From NCBI GenBank assembly GCA_019351895.1, contig JABBOH010000020.1, positions 1 to 64,000 of the forward strand: a stretch of 64,000 nucleotides of DNA. The letters run 5' to 3'. This document shows, one piece after another, positions 11,020 through 23,688 of the stretch. The translations under genes and the position numbers were made by a program. Within the stretch, counting starts at the first letter, position 1. Each line of letters opens with the position of its first letter. This DNA is from Pseudomonadota bacterium (GTDB taxonomy: Bacteria; Pseudomonadota; Alphaproteobacteria; Acetobacterales; Acetobacteraceae). The notes under the pieces are model-generated. The model had not been told where the DNA came from. It saw only the letters and a list, made by a program, of their open reading frames with translations, and did not search any database.

Positions 11020-11098
11020 GCCCAAACCCTGCCACGGGCGGCGGCATCAAACTTGCTCGTAACCAGCCAGTCGGGCTGAAGCTTTGGGAGAAACTGTG

Positions 11099-12124
11099 AT
11101 GATGCAACCTTGGAGGCAGCGGTGGCTCGGCATGGCCGGGGCGGCGCTCCTCGGCCTCTGCGGCGCGTGGGCGGCGGCTCCTGCGGCTCAGGCCGCCGAT
11201 CCGCTGACGCTGCAGTTGAAGTGGGTCACACAGGGGCAGTTCGTCGGTTATTACGTGGCCCTGGCAAAAGGCGTCTATAAAGCCGACGGCTTGAACGTTA
11301 CGATCAAGCCCGGCGGTCCCGACATCAACCCGGATCAGGTTCTGGCCGGGGGCGGCGCCGACGTGGTCATCGACTGGATGCCCTCGGCACTGGCGACGCG
11401 CGAGAAGGGCGTCGCCATCGTGAACATCGCCCAGGTGTTCCAGCATTCGGGCATGGAACTGACCTGCCGGCGCGACAGCGGCATTCGCACACCTGCCGAT
11501 TTCAAAGGCAAGACGCTCGGCGTCTGGTTTTCCGGCAACGAATATCCGTTTCTGTCCTGGATGGCGAAGCTCGGCTATTCGACCGATGGCGCACATCCGG
11601 ACGTGACCGTGCTGAAGCAGGGCTTCAACGTCGATCCGCTGCTGCAGAAGCAGGCGGCCTGCATCTCGACGATGACCTATAACGAATACTGGCAGCTGAT
11701 CGAGGCGGGGATGAAACCGTCGCAGCTCATCGTCTTCAAGTATCAGGCCGAGCATGTGGCGACCCTGGAAGACGGGCTCTATGTGCTGCAGAGGTCGCTC
11801 GACAATCCGGCGATGGTCGGCAAACTGGCCCGCTTCCTCAAGGCGTCCAAGGAAGGCTGGCAATACGCCGAAGCCCATCAGGCGGAGGCCGTGAAAATTC
11901 TTCTGGCTGCGGATACCGCCGGTGTGCTGACCAAGCAACATCAGACGCGCATGGTCGAGGAAGTCGTCAAGTTGCTTGGGACCACGCCCTGGGGCTATCT
12001 GCAACCAGCGGACTACAAGCAGACAGTGAGTGAACTTCTGTCTAGCAAATCGACACCTGTGATCTCGAAGGCCCCTGCCGGTGCCTATAGCTATGCCGTC
12101 TGGGATAAAGCCTTCAAGAAATGA
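11099..12124 (+). CDS. ABC importer substrate-binding protein (NMT1/THI5-like)
   Basis: A 341-residue periplasmic protein with a Sec signal peptide cleaved near residue 32 (PAAQA-ADPL). The mature start LKWVTQGQFVGYYVALAKGVYKADG is typical of the NMT1/THI5 class, whose members bind thiamine-pyrimidine precursors, riboflavin, sulfonates and similar small molecules. GGGAG lies eight bases before the ATG at 11099; the track start is a TTG 15 bases upstream. The resemblance to pyrimidine-precursor binders and the operon position make uracil, a dihydropyrimidine or a hydantoin reasonable ligands, but this is inference. Confidence 0.9.
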   Translation: MMQPWRQRWLGMAGAALLGLCGAWAAAPAAQAADPLTLQLKWVTQGQFVGYYVALAKGVYKADGLNVTIKPGGPDINPDQVLAGGGADVVIDWMPSALATREKGVAIVNIAQVFQHSGMELTCRRDSGIRTPADFKGKTLGVWFSGNEYPFLSWMAKLGYSTDGAHPDVTVLKQGFNVDPLLQKQAACISTMTYNEYWQLIEAGMKPSQLIVFKYQAEHVATLEDGLYVLQRSLDNPAMVGKLARFLKASKEGWQYAEAHQAEAVKILLAADTAGVLTKQHQTRMVEEVVKLLGTTPWGYLQPADYKQTVSELLSSKSTPVISKAPAGAYSYAVWDKAFKK

Positions 12125-12141
12125 GACGAGATAATCGATAG

Positions 12142-12170
12142 GGCGGCCGACGTTCGGTCCGCCATTTTCT
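12142..12170 (+). terminator. Intrinsic terminator after the pyrimidine/ABC operon
   Basis: GGCGGCCGA pairs with TCGGTCCGCC (one bulged base, tight loop) and is followed by ATTTTCT. It lies 17 bases after the binding-protein stop and marks the end of the preT operon before the livJ-type gene. Confidence 0.6.
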
Positions 12171-12272
12171 CTGGACTTCTGCGACGGCCCGATGCTTGCT
12201 TGGAACGGCGAGCGTGGCGCCGGCGCAGCCGTATCAATGCGTACACGTTCTGACCTGGAGGATTTTTAAGCG

Positions 12273-13511
12273 ATGATCACGAGACGTTCCGCGGCAACCT
12301 TGCTGGCCGGCACCGCGCTGGGCGCGGCCTTTGGCCTGCCCGGCATCGCCGAGGCTGCCGACAAGGAAATCATCATCGGCATCAACCTGCCGATCACCGG
12401 CGCGGACGCCGCCGGCGCCAAGCGCATGATGAACGGCGCGCTGCTGGGCATTCAGCAGGCGAACGACGCGAACGAAATCCCCGGCTACAAGCTGAAGGGC
12501 CTCGTGCTGAACGATGCGACGGCCACCGCCGGCCAGTATGACCCTGCCCAGGCTGCGACCAACGCCCGCAAGTTCGTGTCGAACCCAAAGGTTCTCGCGG
12601 CGATCGGGCCGGAGATGAGCGGCGCGGCCAAGGCGATGGCGCCGATACTCAGCGAGGGCGACCTCACGATCATCACGCCCTCGGCGACCAACCCCGACCT
12701 GACCAACCCGCAGTTCGCCGCGCAGTACATGCCCGGCGGCAAGCCCGTTTTCTTCCGCACGGTGACGACGGACGCCTTCCAGGGTCCCAACATGGCGAAT
12801 TTTTACGCCGAGACCCTCGGCGTTAAGGACGTCTACATCCTCGACGACAGCGGCGCTTACGGCGTCGGCCTCGCCGACTCCTTCGAGGCTCAGTGCAAGG
12901 CGAAGGGCGTCAAGGTCCTGGGCCGCGATCGCCTGGACCCGACGGCTTCCGACTACACGGCGGTCATGACCAAGATCAAGTCGCTGAGCGCCAGCTCGCT
13001 CTACTACGGCGGCGTCGCCGGCGCGGGCGTCAAGGTCGTCAAGGAATCCTACGCGGTCGTGCCGAACATCAAGAAGGGCGCGGGCGACGGTATGTATTCG
13101 CCCGACGTGACGACGGGCGCCGGCTTCCCCGCCGCCGAGGGCTGGTACGTCACCAACGCTTCCCCGCACATGACGGAAGACCCCAAGGTCGCCGCCTGGA
13201 TCAGCGCCTACCAGTCGGCCTTCAACCAGAGCCCGGACGACTATGCCATCACCTCCTATGACGGCGTGCTGGTCATTCTCGCCGCGTTGAAGAAGGTGAT
13301 CGCCGAGGGCAAGGCGCCGACGCGCGACAACGTTCGCGCGGCCGTTGCCAGTTCCACGGTCGACACGCTGCAGGGCACAGTCTCCTTCGACGCGAACGGC
13401 GACATCAAGCAGCGCGTTGTCAGTGTCTTCCAGATTGTCCACAACCCGGCCTATCCGCTTGACGACACTATCCATCAGTTCAAGTACATCGGCGTCGCGC
13501 CCCAGAGCTGA
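12273..13511 (+). CDS. livJ: Branched-chain-amino-acid-type ABC substrate-binding protein
   Basis: A 412-residue type I periplasmic binding protein (Peripla_BP_6). The N-terminus MITRRSAATLLAGTALGAAF has a twin-arginine-like start and cleaves near AEA-ADKE. The mature domain begins IIIGINLPITGADAAGAKRMMNG, as in LivJ/LivK and the amide/urea binders of this family. CTGGAGG precedes the start. It is followed by a hairpin and then by livH, livM-livG and livF. The substrate cannot be read from sequence; proximity to pyrimidine breakdown makes a degradation-related amide, urea or amino acid as likely as leucine. Confidence 0.9.
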   Translation: MITRRSAATLLAGTALGAAFGLPGIAEAADKEIIIGINLPITGADAAGAKRMMNGALLGIQQANDANEIPGYKLKGLVLNDATATAGQYDPAQAATNARKFVSNPKVLAAIGPEMSGAAKAMAPILSEGDLTIITPSATNPDLTNPQFAAQYMPGGKPVFFRTVTTDAFQGPNMANFYAETLGVKDVYILDDSGAYGVGLADSFEAQCKAKGVKVLGRDRLDPTASDYTAVMTKIKSLSASSLYYGGVAGAGVKVVKESYAVVPNIKKGAGDGMYSPDVTTGAGFPAAEGWYVTNASPHMTEDPKVAAWISAYQSAFNQSPDDYAITSYDGVLVILAALKKVIAEGKAPTRDNVRAAVASSTVDTLQGTVSFDANGDIKQRVVSVFQIVHNPAYPLDDTIHQFKYIGVAPQS

Positions 13512-13524
13512 GACCACCACGACG

Positions 13525-13558
13525 GGAGAGCGTTCCGGTAAGGGAACGCTCTTCGTCT
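13525..13558 (+). terminator. Hairpin terminator/attenuator between livJ and livH
   Basis: A perfect 10-base stem, AGAGCGTTCC and GGAACGCTCT (13527-13552), with a six-base loop is followed by TCGTCTAT, a weak U-tract. Placed 15 bases after livJ and 160 bases before livH, it probably stops or attenuates transcription so that the binding protein is made in excess over membrane components, a common pattern in ABC operons. Confidence 0.65.
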
Positions 13559-13718
13559 ATCGGCGATGTCCTTCCGGACGCCGCATTTTTCGTGCCATAG
13601 CCTAGCCGTCGGCGGCGGTGGAGCGGCCCGCAGAGACCTCCACCGCACGCGGAAGCAGCACGGTCCGCCGCCCTCGCTTCCCCGACACCCCTTCCGATAG
13701 AGCCGGGATCAGAACCAG

Positions 13719-14648
13719 ATGTCGCCTTTTGACCTCCTCCTCCAGCAGATAATCAACGGTCTCAGTCTCGGGTCGATGTATGCCTTGCTCGCGCTCGGCT
13801 TCACGATCGTCTACGGCATCATGGAGCTGATCAACTTCTCCCACTTCAACGTATTCATGATCGGCTCCTTCGTCGCCATGGGCGTGCTGAGCCTGTTCGG
13901 GCTTCAAGGACAGTCGATCCTGATGCACGGCGCGCCGCTCGTCGTCGCGCTCATCGTCGCGCTGGTCGTCACAATGGTCGCCTGCGGATTGCTCGGCGTC
14001 CTCATCGAGCGTGTGGCGCTGCGCCCGCTGCGCGGCGTGCAAGGACCGATGGCGATGATCACGACGATCGGCGTATCCTATGTGCTGTCAAATGCGACGA
14101 TGCTGGCGCTCGGCGCGAACACCAAGAACTTTCCCAATCCCATCCCGCCGATGACATTCCATATCGGCACGGCGCAGATCACTGCCTTCCAGATCGTCAT
14201 CTGGGTTCTGTCGGCCCTTCTGATGGGCGGCCTCTACATGTTCGTGCAGCGGAGCAAGCTCGGCAAGGCGATGCGGGCGACTGCGCAGGACCCGGATGCG
14301 GCGCTGATGATGGGTGTCGAGGTCAACCGCGTGATCATGACGGCGTTCTTCCTCGGCTCGGCCCTCGCCGGCGCGGCGGGTTTCATCTTCGGCCTCTATT
14401 ACAACTTCACCAATTTCGGCATCGGCTTCACCGCCGGCCTGCGTGCCTTCACCGCCGCGGTGCTCGGCGGCATCGGCAACATTCCGGGTGCGATGCTGGG
14501 CGGCATCCTCATCGGCCTGATCGAGGCGATGGCCGGCCAATACGTCGGCGCGAAATGGGCCGATGTGATCATCTTCTCCCTGCTGGTGCTTGTGCTGATC
14601 GCGCGTCCCGCCGGTCTGCTCGGGCGGCTCGCGCCCACCAAATCCTGA
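13719..14648 (+). CDS. livH: Branched-chain-type ABC permease LivH
   Basis: A 309-residue permease, about eight membrane segments, with the LivH signature start QQIINGLSLGSMYALLALGFTIVYGIMELINFSH. The late motif GLRAFTAAVLGGIGNIPGAMLGG is diagnostic for the family. It lies in the inner membrane and pairs with the LivM half of the next protein. The Shine-Dalgarno sequence is weak. The livM-livG start follows 13 bases after the stop, with AAGGAG in between. Confidence 0.93.
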   Translation: MSPFDLLLQQIINGLSLGSMYALLALGFTIVYGIMELINFSHFNVFMIGSFVAMGVLSLFGLQGQSILMHGAPLVVALIVALVVTMVACGLLGVLIERVALRPLRGVQGPMAMITTIGVSYVLSNATMLALGANTKNFPNPIPPMTFHIGTAQITAFQIVIWVLSALLMGGLYMFVQRSKLGKAMRATAQDPDAALMMGVEVNRVIMTAFFLGSALAGAAGFIFGLYYNFTNFGIGFTAGLRAFTAAVLGGIGNIPGAMLGGILIGLIEAMAGQYVGAKWADVIIFSLLVLVLIARPAGLLGRLAPTKS

Positions 14649-14661
14649 AGGAGCCAGGATC

Positions 14662-16755
14662 ATGGACACCATGGACACGACGACCGTCACGCCTGACGCC
14701 AAGCCGGGCCACGAGAACACCAACGCCCTGCACACGGTGGAGGCGCCGCCGGCCCGATGGCACTGGCTGAGCGGGCCATTCGAACGGCCGGGCGTTCGGC
14801 GCGCCACGATCGTGCTGCTCGCCGTGTTCGCGCTCGCCTTCCCCTTCATCACTGGCGATCAGGCCAATATCGACGCCGCCGGCAACGCGACGGCCTATGC
14901 CTGCCTCGCCCTCGGCCTCAACATCGTCGTCGGCTTCTGCGGCCTGCTCGACTTGGGCTATGCGGCCTTCTTCGCCATCGGTGCCTATTCCTTCGGCATC
15001 CTGACCTCCTGGCAGATCACCCCCGAATGGAGCGGTTTCTGGTCGCCCTTCGCCGCCCTCGGCCTCGTGCAGAAGGTCGTGCAGAACGGCCATGCCCTCG
15101 TGCATTTCACTGTATCCTTCTGGATCATGCTGCCGCTCTCGGGCGTCATCGCGGCGTTCTTCGGCGTACTGTTCGGGGCGCCGACGCTGCGGCTCCGCGG
15201 CGACTACCTCGCGATCGTGACGCTCGGCTTCGGCGAGATCGTGCCCATCGTCGCGCGGAACTGGTCCAGCCTCACCAATGGCGCCGCCGGCCTCAACGGC
15301 ATCGCGAGCCCGACCATCTTCAGCTACCGTTTCGGCATCAATGCCACGCCCTACTACTATGTCGGCATCGGTCTGGTCGCCTTCCTGATCTTTGCCAGCA
15401 CGAGATTGCGCGACAGCCGCATCGGGCGCGCCTGGATGGCGATCCGCGACGACGAGATCGCGGCGAGCGCGATGGGCATCAACCTGACGCGCTTCAAGCT
15501 GCTCGCCTTCGGCATCGGCGCAGGCTTTGCCGGCATGTCCGGCACCTTCTACGTCGCCAAGCTGCAGACGGCGACGCCCGACATGTTCGGCTTTCCGGTC
15601 TCCGTCATGATCCTGGTCATGGTCGTGCTCGGCGGCCTCGGCAGCGTCTGGGGCGTCGTGCTCGGCGCCGTGCTGCTGCAGCTTCTGCAGTCCTGGTTCC
15701 TCGGCGACCTGACCCAATGGGTCAACGCCTTCGGCACGCTGATCCACTCGGGCTATCTGAGTTCGATCGACCTCACGCAGGCGAGCGAACTGCTCTTCGG
15801 CATCATCCTCGTCATCATGATGCTCTACCGGCGCGAGGGGTTGATCCCAGCCAACCGCCGCCAGCGCGCGCTGAGCTTCGAGCAGCAGCATGCGACGGTG
15901 CAGATGCAGAAGCGGGCGAGCGACATCACCCTGTCGCAGATCGGCGGCGAGGGATACCGGCACGAGCCGGGCGCCGTGCCGATGCTGGAAATCAATGATG
16001 TGACGGTGCGCTTCGGCGGCCTCGTGGCGCTGAACAAGGTGAACATCACCGTGCCGGCAGGCGGCGTAGTCGCCGTCATCGGCCCCAACGGCTCGGGCAA
16101 GTCGACACTGTTCAACACCATCACCGGGCTCACTCGTGCCGCTGAGGGCAGCATCCTGTTCAACGGCCAGGAGATCATCGGCTTGCCGCCGCACGAGATC
16201 CTGCGCCTCGGTATCGCCCGGACGTTCCAGAACATCCGGCTGTTCGGCACGCTGACGGTCGCGGCGAATATCATGGTCGGCCAGCATGCGCGGCTGAAGG
16301 CCGGGCCGATTTCAGCCATCCTGCGCTCTCCGAAGAACCTGCCCGAGGAGAAGGCTGCCCGTGCATGGATCGTCGAGATCGCGCAGATCTTCGGCAACCG
16401 GCTGGCGCCGCGCCTCACCCAGACGGTCGTCGGCCTCTCCTACGCGAATCGCCGCCGCGTCGAGATTTCACGCGCGCTGGCCTCCAAGCCTCGCTTGCTT
16501 CTGCTGGACGAGCCGACCGCCGGCATGAACACGTCGGAGTCGCTCGAACTCGCGGAGCAGATCAAGGGCCTGCACGCGCTCGGCCTCACCATCCTCATCA
16601 TCGAGCACAAGCTCGACGTGGTGACGCGGATCGCCGACAAGGTCATCGTGCTCGACCATGGCGACAAGCTGACCGAGGGGCTGCCCGACGAGGTCCGCCG
16701 CAATGAGGCCGTGCTGGAAGCCTATCTCGGCCGGGGAGCCGCCGCGCATGCTTGA
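14662..16755 (+). CDS. Fused LivM permease - LivG ATPase
   Basis: A 697-residue fusion. Residues about 50-400 are LivM: membrane segments, ACLALGLNIVVGFCGLLDLGYAAFFAIGAY, and GDYLAIVTLGFGEIV. After a linker of about 35 residues (FEQQHATVQMQKRASD), residues about 438-690 are a LivG-type ATPase with Walker A GPNGSGKSTLF, Q-loop ARTFQNIRLFG, Walker B LLLLDEPTAGMN and IIEHKLDVV. The signature region reads LSYANRRRVEISRAL instead of the usual LSGGQ or LSYGQQR. An N-terminal leader of about 30 polar residues precedes the first membrane segment. AAGGAG supports the ATG at 14662. Confidence 0.93.
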   Translation: MDTMDTTTVTPDAKPGHENTNALHTVEAPPARWHWLSGPFERPGVRRATIVLLAVFALAFPFITGDQANIDAAGNATAYACLALGLNIVVGFCGLLDLGYAAFFAIGAYSFGILTSWQITPEWSGFWSPFAALGLVQKVVQNGHALVHFTVSFWIMLPLSGVIAAFFGVLFGAPTLRLRGDYLAIVTLGFGEIVPIVARNWSSLTNGAAGLNGIASPTIFSYRFGINATPYYYVGIGLVAFLIFASTRLRDSRIGRAWMAIRDDEIAASAMGINLTRFKLLAFGIGAGFAGMSGTFYVAKLQTATPDMFGFPVSVMILVMVVLGGLGSVWGVVLGAVLLQLLQSWFLGDLTQWVNAFGTLIHSGYLSSIDLTQASELLFGIILVIMMLYRREGLIPANRRQRALSFEQQHATVQMQKRASDITLSQIGGEGYRHEPGAVPMLEINDVTVRFGGLVALNKVNITVPAGGVVAVIGPNGSGKSTLFNTITGLTRAAEGSILFNGQEIIGLPPHEILRLGIARTFQNIRLFGTLTVAANIMVGQHARLKAGPISAILRSPKNLPEEKAARAWIVEIAQIFGNRLAPRLTQTVVGLSYANRRRVEISRALASKPRLLLLDEPTAGMNTSESLELAEQIKGLHALGLTILIIEHKLDVVTRIADKVIVLDHGDKLTEGLPDEVRRNEAVLEAYLGRGAAAHA

Positions 16756-17470
16756 GTTCCGCAACGTCAACACCTACTACGGCGACCTGCACGTTCTGAA
16801 GAACGTGAACTACAACCTTGGCGCGGGCGAGATCATCTGCCTGCTCGGCGGCAATGCCTGCGGCAAGTCGACGACCATGAAGACCATCATGGGCATCGTG
16901 CGGCCGACGAGCGGCGAGGTCATCTTCGAGGGGCAGCGCATCGACAAGCTCTCAACAGCCGAGCGCGTGCGTCGCGGCATCGCGCCGGTGCTGGAGGCGC
17001 GACGGCTGTTCCCCCGCATGACAGTGTTCGAGAACCTGGAGATGGGCGCCTTCACCCGCAAGCGCGGCCCCGAGTTCAACGAGGATCTCGATCGCGTCTA
17101 CACGCTGTTTCCCCGGGTGAAGGAGCGTCGGGACCAGCAGGCGGGCACGCTCTCCGGTGGCGAGCAGCAGATGGTCGCGATCGGCCGGGCGCTGATGGCG
17201 CGGCCCAAGCTCATCTGCATGGACGAGCCGTCCATGGGCCTCTCGCCGCTTTTCGTCGAGCAGACCTTCGAGATCATCCAGACCATCAACCGCCAGGGCG
17301 TCACGATCTTCATGGTCGAGCAGAATGCGGCCATGGCGCTGTCCATCGCCCATCGCGCCTATGTGCTGCAGACCGGGCAGGTCGTGCTGTCGGGTCCGGC
17401 CTCCGAGCTGCGGGAGAACGAGCAGATCCGCGAGGCCTATCTCGGCGAGATGCAGGTCGCCGCCGAATAA
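16748..17470 (+). CDS. livF: Branched-chain-type ABC ATPase LivF
   Basis: A 240-residue ATPase with Walker A LGGNACGKSTT, Q-loop/LivF stretch APVLEARRLFPRMTVFENLEMGAF, signature LSGGEQQM, Walker B ICMDEPSMGLSP and the switch region MVEQNAAMAL. It would pair with the LivG half of the fusion; since its signature motif is canonical, one of the two composite ATP sites should be fully competent. The ATG at 16748 overlaps the end of the fusion gene by 8 bases; the track start at 16703 is a frame extension. Confidence 0.94.
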   Translation: MLEFRNVNTYYGDLHVLKNVNYNLGAGEIICLLGGNACGKSTTMKTIMGIVRPTSGEVIFEGQRIDKLSTAERVRRGIAPVLEARRLFPRMTVFENLEMGAFTRKRGPEFNEDLDRVYTLFPRVKERRDQQAGTLSGGEQQMVAIGRALMARPKLICMDEPSMGLSPLFVEQTFEIIQTINRQGVTIFMVEQNAAMALSIAHRAYVLQTGQVVLSGPASELRENEQIREAYLGEMQVAAE

Positions 17471-19012: not shown

Positions 19013-19837
19013 TTATGATGCCCAAAGGGCTAGTGCGGTCTCCCGAAGGGTGAGCGCCTCTGCCCAGCGGTCCGTCTGGTCGCGTCCGTCCTCGGCCGTT
19101 ATGGCGTAGGGAGCGGGTCCCAACTCGCAGGTGAAGGTCAGAGTGTCGTCGGCTCCGGCACGCTGGCGCCAGCTGCGGAACCCTGCTGCCCACCAGGTCT
19201 GGAACTGCCGGAACCAATCCTGGTGTTGCGGAAACGAAAGCTCGAGCTGTACCTGATGCGGCCCGGCAACGCGGCCGTGCAGGGCCCAGGCACGCCCCAG
19301 GATCCGGTCGATCATCGCCGCGATATCGTTTCGGACCGGCGGGCTGATTTCCCTTGCGACAACATAATGGGAGAGATCGGCAGTGAAACGGAGCAACGGG
19401 AAGGCGTCCATCAGCGCCATGGTGAACAGCAGATCATTGGTCATCCGGCCGCGATGCGTTTCGATATAGACCGGCACGCCGGCACGCTCGGCCGAGCGGT
19501 GCCAGCCCTCCAGGATCGGCAGGCAATCGGAGACCGTCATCGGGCAGATGTCGGGCTGGACAGTGATGTGATGGCAGCCGAACTCCGCTGCCATCTCCAG
19601 CGCCGGCGCGAGTTCCTCGACGTTGCGGGGGAAGGCCTGGCCCTCGATGCCGAGCTTGTGCCGGCGCAGCAGCGTCATCAGCGGCGCGACATGGTGGCGG
19701 TCGTAGAAATGGTCGGTCACGCCGTCGAAGCCGGCGGCGGCGATGCGCTCGACCTTCTCCTCCAGACGGAGTTCGCGCTCCTCCGACCGCAGGCGCTCCA
19801 TTCCCCAGAGCGACTGGAAGACGAGCAGCTTCTGCAC
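19013..19837 (-). CDS. Sugar phosphate isomerase/epimerase-like TIM barrel (MocC/IolE-like)
   Basis: A 274-residue xylose-isomerase-like (AP_endonuc_2) TIM barrel. Candidate metal/catalytic segments are HHITVQPDI, VYIETHRGRMTND (Glu) and RFTADLSHYVV (Asp, His), followed by a His of ALHGRVAG. It starts at GTG two bases after the stop of the ferredoxin reductase, so it is the last gene of a four-gene operon. Relatives include IolE, IolI and rhizopine catabolism protein MocC. With a moc-type oxygenase upstream, it probably isomerises or dehydrates the demethylated or hydroxylated cyclitol or sugar product. The substrate is unknown. Confidence 0.85.
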   Translation of the reverse strand: MQKLLVFQSLWGMERLRSEERELRLEEKVERIAAAGFDGVTDHFYDRHHVAPLMTLLRRHKLGIEGQAFPRNVEELAPALEMAAEFGCHHITVQPDICPMTVSDCLPILEGWHRSAERAGVPVYIETHRGRMTNDLLFTMALMDAFPLLRFTADLSHYVVAREISPPVRNDIAAMIDRILGRAWALHGRVAGPHQVQLELSFPQHQDWFRQFQTWWAAGFRSWRQRAGADDTLTFTCELGPAPYAITAEDGRDQTDRWAEALTLRETALALWAS

Positions 19838-19839
19838 GG

Positions 19840-21105
19840 TCAGGCGGCCAGGGATTCGGCGGCGAGCAGCGCCTTGAGCTTGACCAAGGGGTCGGCGAGC
19901 GCCGTCTCGGGCGGGTGGGCGCGTCTGGCGATGAGCATCTCGGCGAGCCGGATTTCGCGCGCGACCTTGCCGATCGGCCCGAAGGCGCTGGCACCCACGA
20001 GGCGCCCGTCCCTCAGGTGGAAATGGAGCGTCGTCCCCCCGAGGTCGCGGGTGACGACCGTGTCGCCCTCGTCAGGCAACCCGGCGATCTGCAATGTCTG
20101 GTCGTGCTGGTCGGACCAGAACCAGGGGACCGCGTCGAAGGCGGCGGTCGCGCCGAGCATGACCCGCGCGGCGTGCCGGCCCTGATCCTGGGCATTGCGC
20201 CATGCCTCCAGCCGCAGCCGGCGGCCGCCGAAAAGCGGGTGCGGGAAGCTGCAACAATCGCCGGCGGCGAGGATGTCGGCATCGTCCGTCACCAGCCGCT
20301 CATCGACGCGGATGCCGTTTTCGATCGTGAGGCCCGCCCGTTCGGCGAGGGCGGTCTCCGGGATCGCGCCGATGCCGGCGATGATTGCGTCGCAGACAAG
20401 CCGCGTGCCGTCGGCGAGCACCACCACCTCCGCAACGCCCTCGCGCTCGATCCGGGCGAGGCCGACGCCCGCGATGATCCGGATACCGGCGGCCTCATGA
20501 GCCGCGGCGACCGTGGCGGCGACTGCGGCGGGCACGGCGCGCCCGAGAATACGGGGCGCCATTTCAACCACGGTGACGGAGCAACCACGGGCAAGCGCGC
20601 TGCCGGCGATCTCTAGGCCGATGAACCCGCCGCCGATGACGACGAGGCGACGGCCGGGCTGAAGGCGCGTGCGCATGGCGAGGGCATCGGAGAAGTCGCG
20701 CAGGTAAAGGACGTTGTCGGGACCGGCCCCGGGGAGGTTCAGCCGGCGCGGCCGGGCGCCGGTCGTCAGCAGCAGCTTCGCATAGGGAATGCGCGTGCGG
20801 TCATCGCAGAGCACCGTATGGCCGGACCGGTCGATCCCCGTCACCAATACCCCTGGGACGTGGCGGATGCCGTGGTCGGCGAGTTGCGCCTCGCTGAGGA
20901 TGGTGGCGGCGGCAGGCTCCTCGACCGCGGTCATCGCTGCCTTCGAGAGCGGCGGCCGCTCGTAGGGGAGGCGGCGTTCCTCGCCGATCAGCGTGACCGT
21001 GCCGGAGTATCCCGCCTCGCGGAGGGTCATGGCGGCGCGGGCGCCCGCTTCACCGGCGCCGACGATGACCATTCCGCGCGCCACGTGGGAGGATGCATCC
21101 GTCAT
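19840..21105 (-). CDS. FAD-dependent ferredoxin reductase (MocF-like, rubredoxin/HcaD type)
   Basis: A 421-residue flavoprotein with the FAD Rossmann motif VIVGAGEAGARAAMTLREAGY at the N-terminus, NAD-binding GGGFIGLEIAGSALARG near residue 155, and the C-terminal FAD motif DADILAAGDCC. It resembles the reductases of bacterial dioxygenases and P450s. It would carry electrons from NAD(P)H to the Rieske ferredoxin encoded 8 bases upstream. The track ORF extends 141 residues through the ferredoxin gene in another frame; the ATG at 21105 gives the standard N-terminus. Together with its neighbours it makes a three-component oxygenase. Confidence 0.9.
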   Translation of the reverse strand: MTDASSHVARGMVIVGAGEAGARAAMTLREAGYSGTVTLIGEERRLPYERPPLSKAAMTAVEEPAAATILSEAQLADHGIRHVPGVLVTGIDRSGHTVLCDDRTRIPYAKLLLTTGARPRRLNLPGAGPDNVLYLRDFSDALAMRTRLQPGRRLVVIGGGFIGLEIAGSALARGCSVTVVEMAPRILGRAVPAAVAATVAAAHEAAGIRIIAGVGLARIEREGVAEVVVLADGTRLVCDAIIAGIGAIPETALAERAGLTIENGIRVDERLVTDDADILAAGDCCSFPHPLFGGRRLRLEAWRNAQDQGRHAARVMLGATAAFDAVPWFWSDQHDQTLQIAGLPDEGDTVVTRDLGGTTLHFHLRDGRLVGASAFGPIGKVAREIRLAEMLIARRAHPPETALADPLVKLKALLAAESLAA

Positions 21106-21113
21106 GCGCGGGA

Positions 21114-21428
21114 TCAGGCGAGGTCGACGAGGACGCGCCCGGCCTCGACCTTGACGGGGTAGGTCTTGAGATTGATGCAGGCGGGCGCGCCCTTGGCCTG
21201 CCCGGTCGGTATGTCGAAGCGGCCGTTGTGCTTGGGGCACTCGATTGTCTTGCCCATCACCAAGCCGTCGGCGAGGTGGACGTTCTCGTGGGTGCAGAGC
21301 CCGCCGGTCGCGAAGAAGCGATCGTTCTCCAGCCGGTAGATGGCGAGGGTGACCCCGCCGTGGTCGAAGCGGATTACGTCCTCTTCCTCGATATCGTCCG
21401 CGGCGCAAGCCTCGATCCATTCGCTCAT
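21114..21428 (-). CDS. mocE: Rieske-type [2Fe-2S] ferredoxin (MocE-like)
   Basis: A soluble 104-residue Rieske ferredoxin. The cluster ligands are CTHENVHLADG (Cys-x-His) and CPKHNGRFD (Cys-x2-His). Small acidic Rieske ferredoxins of this kind shuttle electrons from an FAD reductase to a terminal oxygenase, and closely similar proteins accompanying desaturase-fold oxygenases are annotated as MocE. The start at 21428 is the Met of MSEWIEACAADD; the track ORF begins 65 residues too early. It sits between the oxygenase (41 bases upstream) and the reductase (8 bases downstream). Confidence 0.92.
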   Translation of the reverse strand: MSEWIEACAADDIEEEDVIRFDHGGVTLAIYRLENDRFFATGGLCTHENVHLADGLVMGKTIECPKHNGRFDIPTGQAKGAPACINLKTYPVKVEAGRVLVDLA

Positions 21429-21469
21429 GATTGACGTGTCCCTGAGGTGTTTTTGATGGTTCGCGGGCG

Positions 21470-22561
21470 TCAGGCGGCGGTCGCGAGACGATCCGCAGGT
21501 AGCGCCGTCGCCGTGGCCGGCAGAACACGGATCACATGGTAATCCGGATCGCGGCGCTGACGGAGCACCGCCGGGATGATCTCCCGGTAGGCGGCGAGCA
21601 GGCTTGGATAGGCGGGCGGGCATTCCGCCTTGATTGCCTCATGCAGCGCCGGCAGCGCGTGGTAGGGCACCATCGGAAACATGTGGTGCTCCACATGGTA
21701 GTTCATGTTCCAGTAGAGGAAACGCGAGACGGGGTTCATGTAGACCGTGCGGCTGTTCAGCCGATGGTCGAGCACGTCCTCGGACAGCCCGGCGTGCTGC
21801 GTCACGCCAAAGACGATGGTGAGCCAGCCGCCATAGAGCGTGGGCAGCCCGATCAGCATGGCCGGGATCCAGCTGTGCAGCGCCATGCAGGCGATCACGA
21901 CCGCCGCGAGGATCGCGAGGTAGATGCGGGCGGTGCGGAAAACCTTGTGGCGCTCCATCTCTGGGATGAAGGTCGCCTCCTCCGCATTCAGACGGCCCCG
22001 CGCATGCAGCACGAGCTTGCCGAGCGCGAACCACGTCGTCTTGATGGCGAAAAGATTCAGCAGCAGGCCCAGGATGTCGGGTGGGCGCTTGACCGAGATC
22101 TCGGGGTCGCGGCCGACGATGATCGTATCCGTGTGGTGGCGCGTATGGCTCCACCGCCAGACGGTCGGCTCCCGCATGATCATGAAGCAGGCGAGGTTGT
22201 AGACCGCGTCGTTCATCCACCCTGTCTTGAAGGCTGTGCCGTGGCCGCATTCATGCCAGCGGGAGTCCGAGGCCGAGCCGTAGAGCACGCCGTAGGCAAT
22301 GAAGAAGGGAACGGCGACCCAGTGGCCCCAGAGCAGGACGCCGGCGCTGCCGAACAGGATGAGCGCGCCGATCCAAAGCGCCGTGTCGCGGATAGCGGGG
22401 CCGTCCTTGCGGCGCATCAGCTCCTTGAGCTGCTTGCGGGGGATCGGCGTCGTATACCAGGTGGCGGAGGCAAGGCCGCGTTCCTCGGCCCGGCGCGCTT
22501 CCGCGCCGACGAGGCTGTAATCGCGGCCTGCGGCCATCCGAGGCGCGGCGGCTGAGCTCAT
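21470..22561 (-). CDS. Membrane diiron oxygenase of the fatty acid desaturase family (MocD-like)
   Basis: A 363-residue integral membrane non-heme diiron enzyme with the three histidine boxes in order: HECGHGT (about residue 108), HTRHHT (about 140) and HVEHH (about 293), plus hydrophobic segments around 63-95 and 210-248. Members hydroxylate, desaturate or O-demethylate. The rhizopine enzyme MocD, which starts 3-O-methyl-scyllo-inosamine use together with MocE and MocF, is the nearest functional model given the neighbours. CGGAGG before the ATG is strong, so this is the first gene of the operon. Fatty acyl desaturation is the alternative, but a dedicated Rieske/FAD chain and an isomerase argue for small-molecule catabolism. 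Confidence 0.88.
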   Translation of the reverse strand: MSSAAAPRMAAGRDYSLVGAEARRAEERGLASATWYTTPIPRKQLKELMRRKDGPAIRDTALWIGALILFGSAGVLLWGHWVAVPFFIAYGVLYGSASDSRWHECGHGTAFKTGWMNDAVYNLACFMIMREPTVWRWSHTRHHTDTIIVGRDPEISVKRPPDILGLLLNLFAIKTTWFALGKLVLHARGRLNAEEATFIPEMERHKVFRTARIYLAILAAVVIACMALHSWIPAMLIGLPTLYGGWLTIVFGVTQHAGLSEDVLDHRLNSRTVYMNPVSRFLYWNMNYHVEHHMFPMVPYHALPALHEAIKAECPPAYPSLLAAYREIIPAVLRQRRDPDYHVIRVLPATATALPADRLATAA

Positions 22562-22623
22562 TCGATTTCCTCCGTTCTTGCCTCGGCTATATCGCAGCCA
22601 TGCCGGAGGATAATCAGTCCGAT

Positions 22624-22639
22624 TGAGGGTTTCCCCTCA
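22624..22639. promoter_or_regulatory. Candidate operator of the LacI regulator
   Basis: A perfect interrupted palindrome, TGAGGG-TTTC-CCCTCA, lies in the 113-base gap between the divergent oxygenase and lacI-type genes, about 36 bases before the regulator start and 63 before the oxygenase start. It is the most symmetric sequence in the gap, and its position fits control of both promoters. The usual central CG of LacI operators is absent, so the assignment is tentative. Confidence 0.4.
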
Positions 22640-22674
22640 TCCCGGATAGGATCGGGCCCCGATGAGAGGTGGCC

Positions 22675-23688
22675 ATGGAACGCGGGAAGAGCCGGGCGGG
22701 GCTTGAGGATGTGGCGCGCCGCGCCGGGGTCGGTCTGGCGACGGTCGACCGCGTGTTGAACGAGCGCGGCAGCGTCTCGGCGCCGACGGAGCGCCGGGTG
22801 ATCGAGGCGGCCCGCGCGCTCGGGCTGCGGCGGGTGCTGCCCGTTCCGCACGCCCCGCAGGTGCGGATCGAGGTCATGCTGGCGCAGTCTCCGACGCCGT
22901 TTCTGCGGCGGTTGTCGCAAGCCATGGCGCAGGTCGCGGCCACCCTCGACCGCTCGGTCGTCGTGCTGCGCACGAGCATCGACATGAGCGACCCGGCGAG
23001 CGTCGCGCCGCGCATCGCCGCGTGCCGCGCCGACGGCATCATCATCTATTGCGAGGAACACCCGGCCAATGTCGCGGCCATCGCGGCCTCCACCGCGGCG
23101 GGGCGGCCGGTGATCTGCGTGGTGACGGATGTGCCGGATGCGCCGCGCGCGGCCTATGTCGGCATCGACCATGCGAAGGCCGGCCGGACGGCAGCGTTTT
23201 TCGCGGCGCGCTTGGCTCGCCCGCCGGACGCGGCGCTGATTCTGTCGACGAGCATCGGGTTTCGCGCGCACAAGCAGCGTATCGACGGGTTCCGCGAGGC
23301 CATGGCGCTGCATGCCCCCGGGGCTGTGGTGGCGCCCGTGATGGCGACGGCCGACGATCCCGGCCGCGCCTACCACCAACTGACCCGGGCGCTGCGGCAG
23401 ACCGCCGGCACCGTTGCCGTCTACAACACAGGTGGCGGCAACACGGGCGTCGCCGACGCGATCCGCGATGCGGGTCGCCGGTCAGATGTCTTGTTCGTCG
23501 GCCATGAACTCACCGAGGAAAGCGCCGCCCTGCTCCGGGACGGATCGATGGCGGTCGCGATCGATCAGGCGCCCGAGTTGCAGGCACGGCGGTCGATCGA
23601 TCTCATGCTTCACCGGCTGGGAGTGACGCCCGCAGAGCCGGTGGCGAGCGAGATCGCCTTCACGCTCCATACGGCGGAGAACTGCTGA
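22675..23688 (+). CDS. LacI-family transcriptional regulator
   Basis: A 337-residue regulator with the LacI helix-turn-helix and hinge at the N-terminus (LEDVARRAGVGLATVDRVLNERGSVS) and a periplasmic-binding-protein-like ligand domain from about residue 60. This lineage is often tied to inositol- or sugar-type ligands; the actual effector is unknown. GAGAGG five bases before the ATG at 22675 favours it over the GTG at 22669. It is divergent from the moc-like operon with a palindrome in the gap, so local control of that operon is the simplest reading. It converges on the thioesterase gene. Confidence 0.92.
   Translation: MERGKSRAGLEDVARRAGVGLATVDRVLNERGSVSAPTERRVIEAARALGLRRVLPVPHAPQVRIEVMLAQSPTPFLRRLSQAMAQVAATLDRSVVVLRTSIDMSDPASVAPRIAACRADGIIIYCEEHPANVAAIAASTAAGRPVICVVTDVPDAPRAAYVGIDHAKAGRTAAFFAARLARPPDAALILSTSIGFRAHKQRIDGFREAMALHAPGAVVAPVMATADDPGRAYHQLTRALRQTAGTVAVYNTGGGNTGVADAIRDAGRRSDVLFVGHELTEESAALLRDGSMAVAIDQAPELQARRSIDLMLHRLGVTPAEPVASEIAFTLHTAENC

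Follow-up and report, generated by a model that had tools for sequence, protein, structure and literature searches.

A LacI-linked relative of the rhizopine-use genes in an Acidisoma-like bacterium: a candidate operon for catabolism of O-methylated polyols

What does an oxygenase system of the kind used for rhizopine (3-O-methyl-scyllo-inosamine) do in a gene cluster that lacks the other rhizopine genes? The question is raised by a five-gene unit (positions 19013-23688) within the first 64,000 nucleotides (hereafter, the window) of contig JABBOH010000020.1 of assembly GCA_019351895.1, which corresponds to contig 68 in a draft genome of 4.7 Mb; among named organisms, Acidisoma cellulosilyticum and A. 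silvae are the closest to it. The unit encodes a membrane oxygenase, a Rieske ferredoxin, a ferredoxin reductase, a TIM barrel protein, and a divergent LacI-family regulator, and it represents a widespread group, related to the genes for rhizopine use, that has not been studied. On balance, we favor reading it as an operon under LacI control for the catabolism of an O-methylated polyol, with a plant O-methyl-inositol (pinitol, sequoyitol, and similar compounds) as the most likely candidate; it probably lets an acid-soil bacterium remove methyl groups from plant methylated sugar-alcohols for use as food. Sequoyitol and pinitol occur in conifers.

Gene content and family membership

The features of the unit are as follows.

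19013..19837, minus strand: TIM barrel protein ("TIM20" family), GTG start; PF01261 26.8 bits, just below the 31.1 cut-off
19840..21105, minus strand: FAD/NAD(P)H ferredoxin reductase, MocF-like; Pyr_redox_2 222 bits, Reductase_C 75 bits
21114..21428, minus strand: MocE-family Rieske [2Fe-2S] ferredoxin; TIGR02377 164.2 bits against a cut-off of 136.15
21470..22561, minus strand: membrane diiron oxygenase, MocD branch of PF00487; PF00487 140 bits against a cut-off of 29.7; three His boxes
22624..22639, no strand: conserved palindrome TGAGGG-TTTC-CCCTCA, predicted LacI operator for both directions
22669..23688, plus strand: divergent LacI-family regulator; PF00356 44 bits against 27, PF13407 121 bits against 35

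Open reading frame (ORF) calls and family scans recovered exactly the span and gene content given by the original prediction, which had been made from the sequence alone. Outward from the promoter, the minus-strand order is oxygenase, ferredoxin, reductase, and TIM barrel, with gaps of 41, 8, and 2 bp; the genes nearly abut, as had been described, and the overlaps mentioned as an alternative do not occur. The three His boxes of the oxygenase are complete (HECGH at 103-107, HTRHH at 139-143, and HVEHH at 289-293), as first read, and their histidines are invariant across 30 aligned members.

The moc reference used for comparison was a locus of Rhizobium leguminosarum Vaf-46 (L172; G046:C418:5000-24800), which was assigned by its MocR score (758 bits against an equivalog cut-off of 650) and not by the published L5-30 sequences. 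Genes for a Gfo/Idh protein and a sugar binding protein run divergently from mocR; MocD, MocE, and MocF are also encoded there, and a TIM barrel of the MocC type lies close by. Identities between the window proteins and those of this mocR-linked locus are 62% for the oxygenase and MocD, 64% for the ferredoxin and MocE, and 49% for the reductase and MocF, which bears out the proposed parallel. The ferredoxin also scores above the curated cut-off of the MocE family, and the reductase is an FAD/NAD(P)H ferredoxin reductase with a Reductase_C domain, linked to the MocD- and MocE-type genes.

The domain name of PF00487, FA_desaturase, and a weak similarity to DesB, the best curated match of the oxygenase (43.5 bits against the DesA/DesB equivalog cut-off of 500), could point to a fatty-acid-desaturase-like enzyme that modifies lipids or carotenoids. 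This explanation is scarcely credible, since the partner genes are catabolic and since the oxygenase falls in a supported 15-row clade (95/96) with MocD homologues in a tree built with GntB-like hydroxylases, a CrtR-like protein, and the acyl desaturase of the host itself, which is of the DesA type (351 bits to DesA). The host desaturase and the CrtR-like protein lie apart from it, so that the grouping with acyl or carotenoid enzymes named in the original prediction as grounds for abandoning it was not found. Sequence comparison places the oxygenase, ferredoxin, and reductase in the MocD, MocE, and MocF families, not among acyl-desaturase or carotenoid enzymes. The predicted structure of the oxygenase is of modest confidence (pLDDT 77), and neither a fold search with this model nor a profile search against the Protein Data Bank (PDB) gave a useful match. 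Within the MocD branch, the window oxygenase shares a clade with Acidisoma and Acidiphilium enzymes (100/99), and the mocR-linked MocD falls elsewhere, in a rhizobial clade.

Several further MocD-type proteins were observed. Relatives of Acidisoma (L154, L157, and L162) have a second paralogue (67% identity) with aldo/keto reductase, DUF4432, Gfo/Idh, TIM barrel, and sugar ABC genes; it has no ferredoxin or reductase of its own, and so electrons would need to be borrowed. The host genome holds a fragment of a third paralogue (L161, G000:C130; 52%) with an internal TGA close to a contig end, which is probably a remnant or an assembly break. An oxygenase from a record titled Mycobacterium sp. 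KBS0706 (L038) is sister to that of Inquilinus limosus (100/99), and the title probably belongs to a misnamed alphaproteobacterium.

LacI linkage, the predicted operator, and the rhizopine genes

Linkage was counted in the 80 genome loci that best match the oxygenase, most of them from Rhizobiales, and 79 of the 80 had enough flanking sequence; coordinates of all loci outside the window are from simple ORF calls. The ferredoxin lies downstream of the oxygenase in 77 of the 79 loci, the reductase in 71/79, and a divergent LacI gene is found within 600 bp of the oxygenase in 70/79; the next gene is PanB-like in 39 of 75 loci and TIM20 in 2 of 75. The linkage of oxygenase, ferredoxin, reductase, and LacI among relatives, on which the original prediction had staked itself, is far beyond chance. 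Moreover, the MocD of the moc reference nests inside the rhizobial LacI-type clade, which together with these counts makes LacI control the common state and mocR-linked moc the rare form. This reverses the earlier view, in which moc was the usual form and the LacI regulator a departure from it.

Rhizobial clusters such as that of Sinorhizobium meliloti 1021, where LacI-mocD-mocE-mocF correspond to SMb20817-20820 (PMC11387232), share with the window the order of LacI followed by oxygenase-ferredoxin-reductase, and related palindromes lie upstream of many of them. They differ in that the fourth gene is often PanB-like, that an ABC transporter, a TIM barrel, and a Gfo/Idh gene lie upstream, and that their LacI is of another clade (31% identity). 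No physiology was found in the literature on SMb20817-20820. In woody-host Pseudomonas syringae, MocDEF homologues are followed by a "xylose isomerase" (mocDEF-xylA2), as in the window, without mocCABR, and were read there as opine/xylose related (PMC5132102). This is likely the arrangement of loci L193-L198, in which LacI adjoins oxygenase-ferredoxin-reductase-TIM20 (DES-FDX-RED-TIM20) and belongs to another clade (27% identity to the window regulator); we infer from this likeness that L193-L198 are from Pseudomonas.

True rhizopine use by a moc cluster with a replaced regulator would agree with the similarity to MocD, MocE, and MocF and with the host's probable ability to degrade inositol. 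The rhizopine system mocCABRDEF of S. meliloti L5-30 and R. leguminosarum shares with the window the three-component oxygenase, a divergent regulator, and the expected O-demethylation of a cyclitol. However, the window cluster has LacI (PF00356) in place of MocR (NF052281), it lacks MocA, MocB, and MocC, and its fourth gene encodes a TIM barrel of another family than MocC; the absence of MocA, MocB, and MocR had been noted at the outset. The MocA dehydrogenase and the MocB binding protein are not found between 17985 and 24572, the rest of the genome not having been searched for them. In addition, the same LacI arrangement occurs in S. meliloti 1021, described as a non-producer of rhizopine, and the window oxygenase lies outside the clade of the mocR-linked MocD. 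The cluster is thus not the moc system, and rhizopine as its substrate is very unlikely.

A few observations concern the moc loci themselves. Past mocF, the reference locus has a PanB-like gene and PurU (formyl-tetrahydrofolate deformylase), neither of which is listed for moc in the papers found on the system and which suggest dedicated handling of the released one-carbon (C1) unit; a YdjC-type deacetylase gene is also present. The rhizopine binding protein family NF052284 was tried as a marker of moc loci and set aside: its seven best loci (L138-L144, refetched with wider flanks as L146-L152) have a binding protein above the cut-off and, in most cases, MocR and/or MocC, with no mocDEF nearby, and they were used only as MocC/MocR references. 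These loci may possibly serve scyllo-inosamine only. The binding protein adjoining MocR in the reference locus scores poorly against NF052284, and a plasmid search with an NF052284-type protein turned up a single plasmid of the same group and nothing else closely related.

The window regulator combines a helix-turn-helix domain (PF00356) with a sugar-type Peripla_BP_4 effector domain (PF13407). The 107-bp gap between LacI and the oxygenase contains a perfect 6+6 palindrome (22624-22639), and related palindromic sites lie upstream of homologues in Acidisoma (TGATGGAAAACCATCA), L193-L198 (TGATAGAAAACTATCA), and Phyllobacterium (TGATAGAATCTATCA). An initial guess at the operator, GATAGAAATTTCTATC, did not fit the window, and the form TGAKRG-N3/4-CYMTCA was taken from the divergent regions. 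This form occurs in 31 of 126 upstream regions (~54 kb) compared to 21 occurrences in the other 2.6 Mb of the loci, an enrichment of ~70-fold that is an upper estimate because the form was drawn from some of the same regions, the regions are related, and two loci were double-counted. In the 4.7-Mb genome it occurs once, at 22624-22639; the reversed control pattern also occurs once, elsewhere. Binding of LacI to the palindrome is predicted from these sites, and in the simplest reading LacI would be a purely local regulator. The operator and its versions among relatives are new here.

In Acidiphilium multivorum, the five-gene unit is carried on the conjugative plasmid pACMV1 (L116), where two copies of one IS1380 transposase flank LacI and one of them sits between LacI and the oxygenase.

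The TIM20 family and its oxygenase partners

The TIM barrel had been taken as the counterpart of MocC, and this part of the original prediction did not hold. The protein matches 0 NCBIfam families at E 0.001, falls below the IolE/MocC criterion (TIGR04379), and reaches only 17% probability against the MocC cluster in a profile-profile comparison. The MocC of the reference locus, at 396 bits against the IolE cut-off of 290, is an inosose-dehydratase-family protein. Judged by these comparisons, the window TIM barrel is not MocC and represents a separate family, here TIM20.

TIM20 is marked by the motifs ETHR (E126), DLSH (D154/H157), HGR (H187), and CELGP (E238). Across 24 diverse members, 28 positions are invariant, including E126, D154, H157, and E238, and H187 is present in most; we take E126, D154, H157, and E238, with H187, to match the metal-ligand pattern known for this fold. 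The AlphaFold model (pLDDT 81) is closest to L-xylulose-5-P 3-epimerase/UlaE and to D-psicose/D-allulose 3-epimerases (E down to 4e-10, TM ~0.6). TIM20 shares its fold and a probable E-D-H-E metal site with the IolE/MocC inosose dehydratases and the ketose 3-epimerases but differs from both in having no significant family match and in its separate conserved motifs. The model supports a putative metal-dependent isomerase or epimerase of the sugar or cyclitol type.

Sampling across the phylum gave TIM20 in 20 of 399 genomes, and sampling across one order gave it in 25 of 298. In the 39 TIM20 loci read, the accompanying oxygenase is of the MocD type in 8, a PF04116 hydroxylase in 4, and a distant PF00487 enzyme in 11, whereas a PhyH dioxygenase occurs with a sugar-type major facilitator superfamily (MFS) transporter and LacI in 2, and a P450 with a 2Fe-2S ferredoxin in 1. 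These pairings are not independent events because several loci are closely related. In L192 and L195, LacI, the PhyH 2-oxoglutarate dioxygenase, the MFS transporter, and TIM20 stand in a row as a soluble-oxygenase version of the unit; in L217 (5564-8921), the row is an AraC regulator, P450, ferredoxin, and TIM20, with a PnrA-like ABC transporter downstream. Jiella has both a MocD-type and a PF04116 oxygenase within one cluster. The occurrence of this TIM family beside PF00487, PF04116, P450, and PhyH oxygenases is likewise new.

In the LacI tree, the window regulator falls in one clade (100/98) with the regulators of PF04116-TIM20 clusters, apart from the rhizobial PanB-type clade, and so the oxygenase has changed within a single line of regulators in which ferredoxin, reductase, and TIM20 were retained. 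A broader proposal, which we put forward tentatively and with less confidence than the operon itself, is that TIM20 marks a modular pathway, so far undescribed, for polyols blocked by methylation or in some other way. One conserved TIM barrel enzyme would be paired in it with interchangeable oxygenases of unrelated structure, which would have been swapped within one LacI clade; the common substrate would be a plant O-methyl-inositol, and rhizobial and Pseudomonas "mocDEF" annotations would be mostly mis-assigned to rhizopine.

The main rival to an O-methyl-inositol is a methylated sugar, namely a methyl hexose or pentose of plant, lichen, or moss polysaccharide, whose O-demethylation would be followed by a TIM barrel acting as a ketose 3-epimerase or aldose isomerase in the pathway of that sugar. 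The structural neighbors of the TIM20 model, the pairings of TIM20 with P450 and ferredoxin (L217) or with PhyH and a sugar-type transporter (L192 and L195), and the aldo/keto reductase, DUF4432, Gfo/Idh, and sugar ABC genes of paralogous MocD-type loci would all suit such a substrate. It is nevertheless unlikely, as TM-scores of ~0.6 cannot separate the many sub-families of the fold, the experimentally studied family members (MocDEF) act on a methyl-inositol amine, and the Acidiphilium unit is followed by inositol-type dehydrogenase and IolE-like genes.

Substrate clues, proposed pathway, and significance

Genes for formaldehyde or C1 handling stand beside several relatives of the unit. TIM20 has an S-(hydroxymethyl)glutathione dehydrogenase as its neighbor in L117, L209, and L210, three loci of which the first type holds a PF04116 oxygenase, another the MocD type, and the third a MocE ferredoxin only, and PurU lies near the oxygenase in 13 loci, including the moc reference. 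These genes are what an O- or N-demethylase would need. PurU is also common beside betaine demethylation genes, and the broader PF00487 superfamily includes amino-acid hydroxylases (GntB-like). A betaine-like compatible solute that is N-demethylated or hydroxylated, or an unrelated carbon source that undergoes plain C-hydroxylation, is nonetheless an improbable substrate, because the relatives have no betaine genes around them; their neighbors encode LacI regulators whose effector domains bind sugars, ABC transporters of the ribose/sugar type, Gfo/Idh dehydrogenases, and TIM isomerases.

Cyclitol genes point toward an O-methyl-inositol. In the closest relative whose gene neighborhood is annotated, on pACMV1, the unit precedes genes for a Gfo/Idh protein, whose best-matching family is inositol/D-chiro-inositol dehydrogenase at 355 bits (cut-off 540), and for an IolE-like protein at 162 bits (cut-off 290). 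The host genome has an iol run of IolD (918 bits, cut-off 715), IolE (393, cut-off 290), IolB (346, cut-off 205), an IolC-type kinase/aldolase, and an MmsA-type dehydrogenase, and its glutathione-dependent formaldehyde dehydrogenase match is split over two contigs (458 and 117 bits). Mimosa root exudate induces the mocDEF homologues of Rhizobium mesoamericanum along with iol genes, idhA, and a mocB-like ABC transporter, and of the solutes measured in this exudate pinitol reached the highest concentration, 145 uM (PMC5789663). Pinitol, as a methyl inositol actually present in the exudate, is a simpler inducer than rhizopine. The C1 genes, the cyclitol genes, the host iol run, and induction by a pinitol-rich exudate together favor O-demethylation of a methylated cyclitol or sugar, most likely an O-methyl-inositol, in keeping with the original suggestion that the substrate is akin to that of moc without being the same, for instance another O-methylated cyclitol. 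Searches of the literature on pinitol use and diiron sugar O-demethylases found nothing closer, and no paper in the literature searched was found to assign bacterial O-demethylase genes to O-methyl inositols.

In the proposed pathway, LacI would occupy the palindrome and silence both directions when the compound is absent, and the compound or its metabolite would release it. Electrons would pass from NAD(P)H through the FAD reductase and the MocE-type Rieske ferredoxin to the membrane diiron oxygenase, which may hydroxylate the O-methyl carbon to give a hemiacetal whose breakdown would release formaldehyde and leave the cyclitol or sugar free. The TIM barrel may then isomerize or epimerize the product or its keto form for a Gfo/Idh-type dehydrogenase and the host iol pathway, while formaldehyde would go to the glutathione-dependent formaldehyde dehydrogenase.

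Several points weigh against this pathway. The operon contains no transporter, and with the operator confined to this one genomic site no uptake gene can be attributed to it. No formaldehyde or Gfo/Idh gene adjoins the cluster in the window, and the links to PurU, PanB, and glutathione-dependent formaldehyde dehydrogenase are seen in relatives, not in the window. The dehydrogenase and the IolE-like protein of Acidiphilium are both under their equivalog cut-offs, 13 of the 39 broadly sampled TIM20 loci have no recognized oxygenase nearby, and the Streptomyces members have no LacI or iol-like neighbors. Furthermore, the root exudate is a mixture in which pinitol as the inducer is unproved, and its authors proposed rhizopine (PMC5789663).

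In the family scans, the unit is flanked by a GGDEF protein on one side and a thioesterase and a thioredoxin on the other, which look unrelated to it. Farther away (11084-17470), translations indicate a NitT/TauT-type binding protein-like gene and a branched-chain-amino-acid-type ABC transporter with a fused permease/ATPase, with no link to the cluster.

The operator and TIM20 offer direct handles on this system, the former for a single-promoter reporter and the latter as an enzyme family without a curated equivalog. Plants can release O-methyl inositols in quantity, as with pinitol in Mimosa exudate (PMC5789663). If the proposed function is correct, root-exudate and woody-host studies would need re-reading, many "mocDEF" genes of non-rhizopine bacteria would be plant-cyclitol demethylases, and rhizopine use would be a rare offshoot of them.

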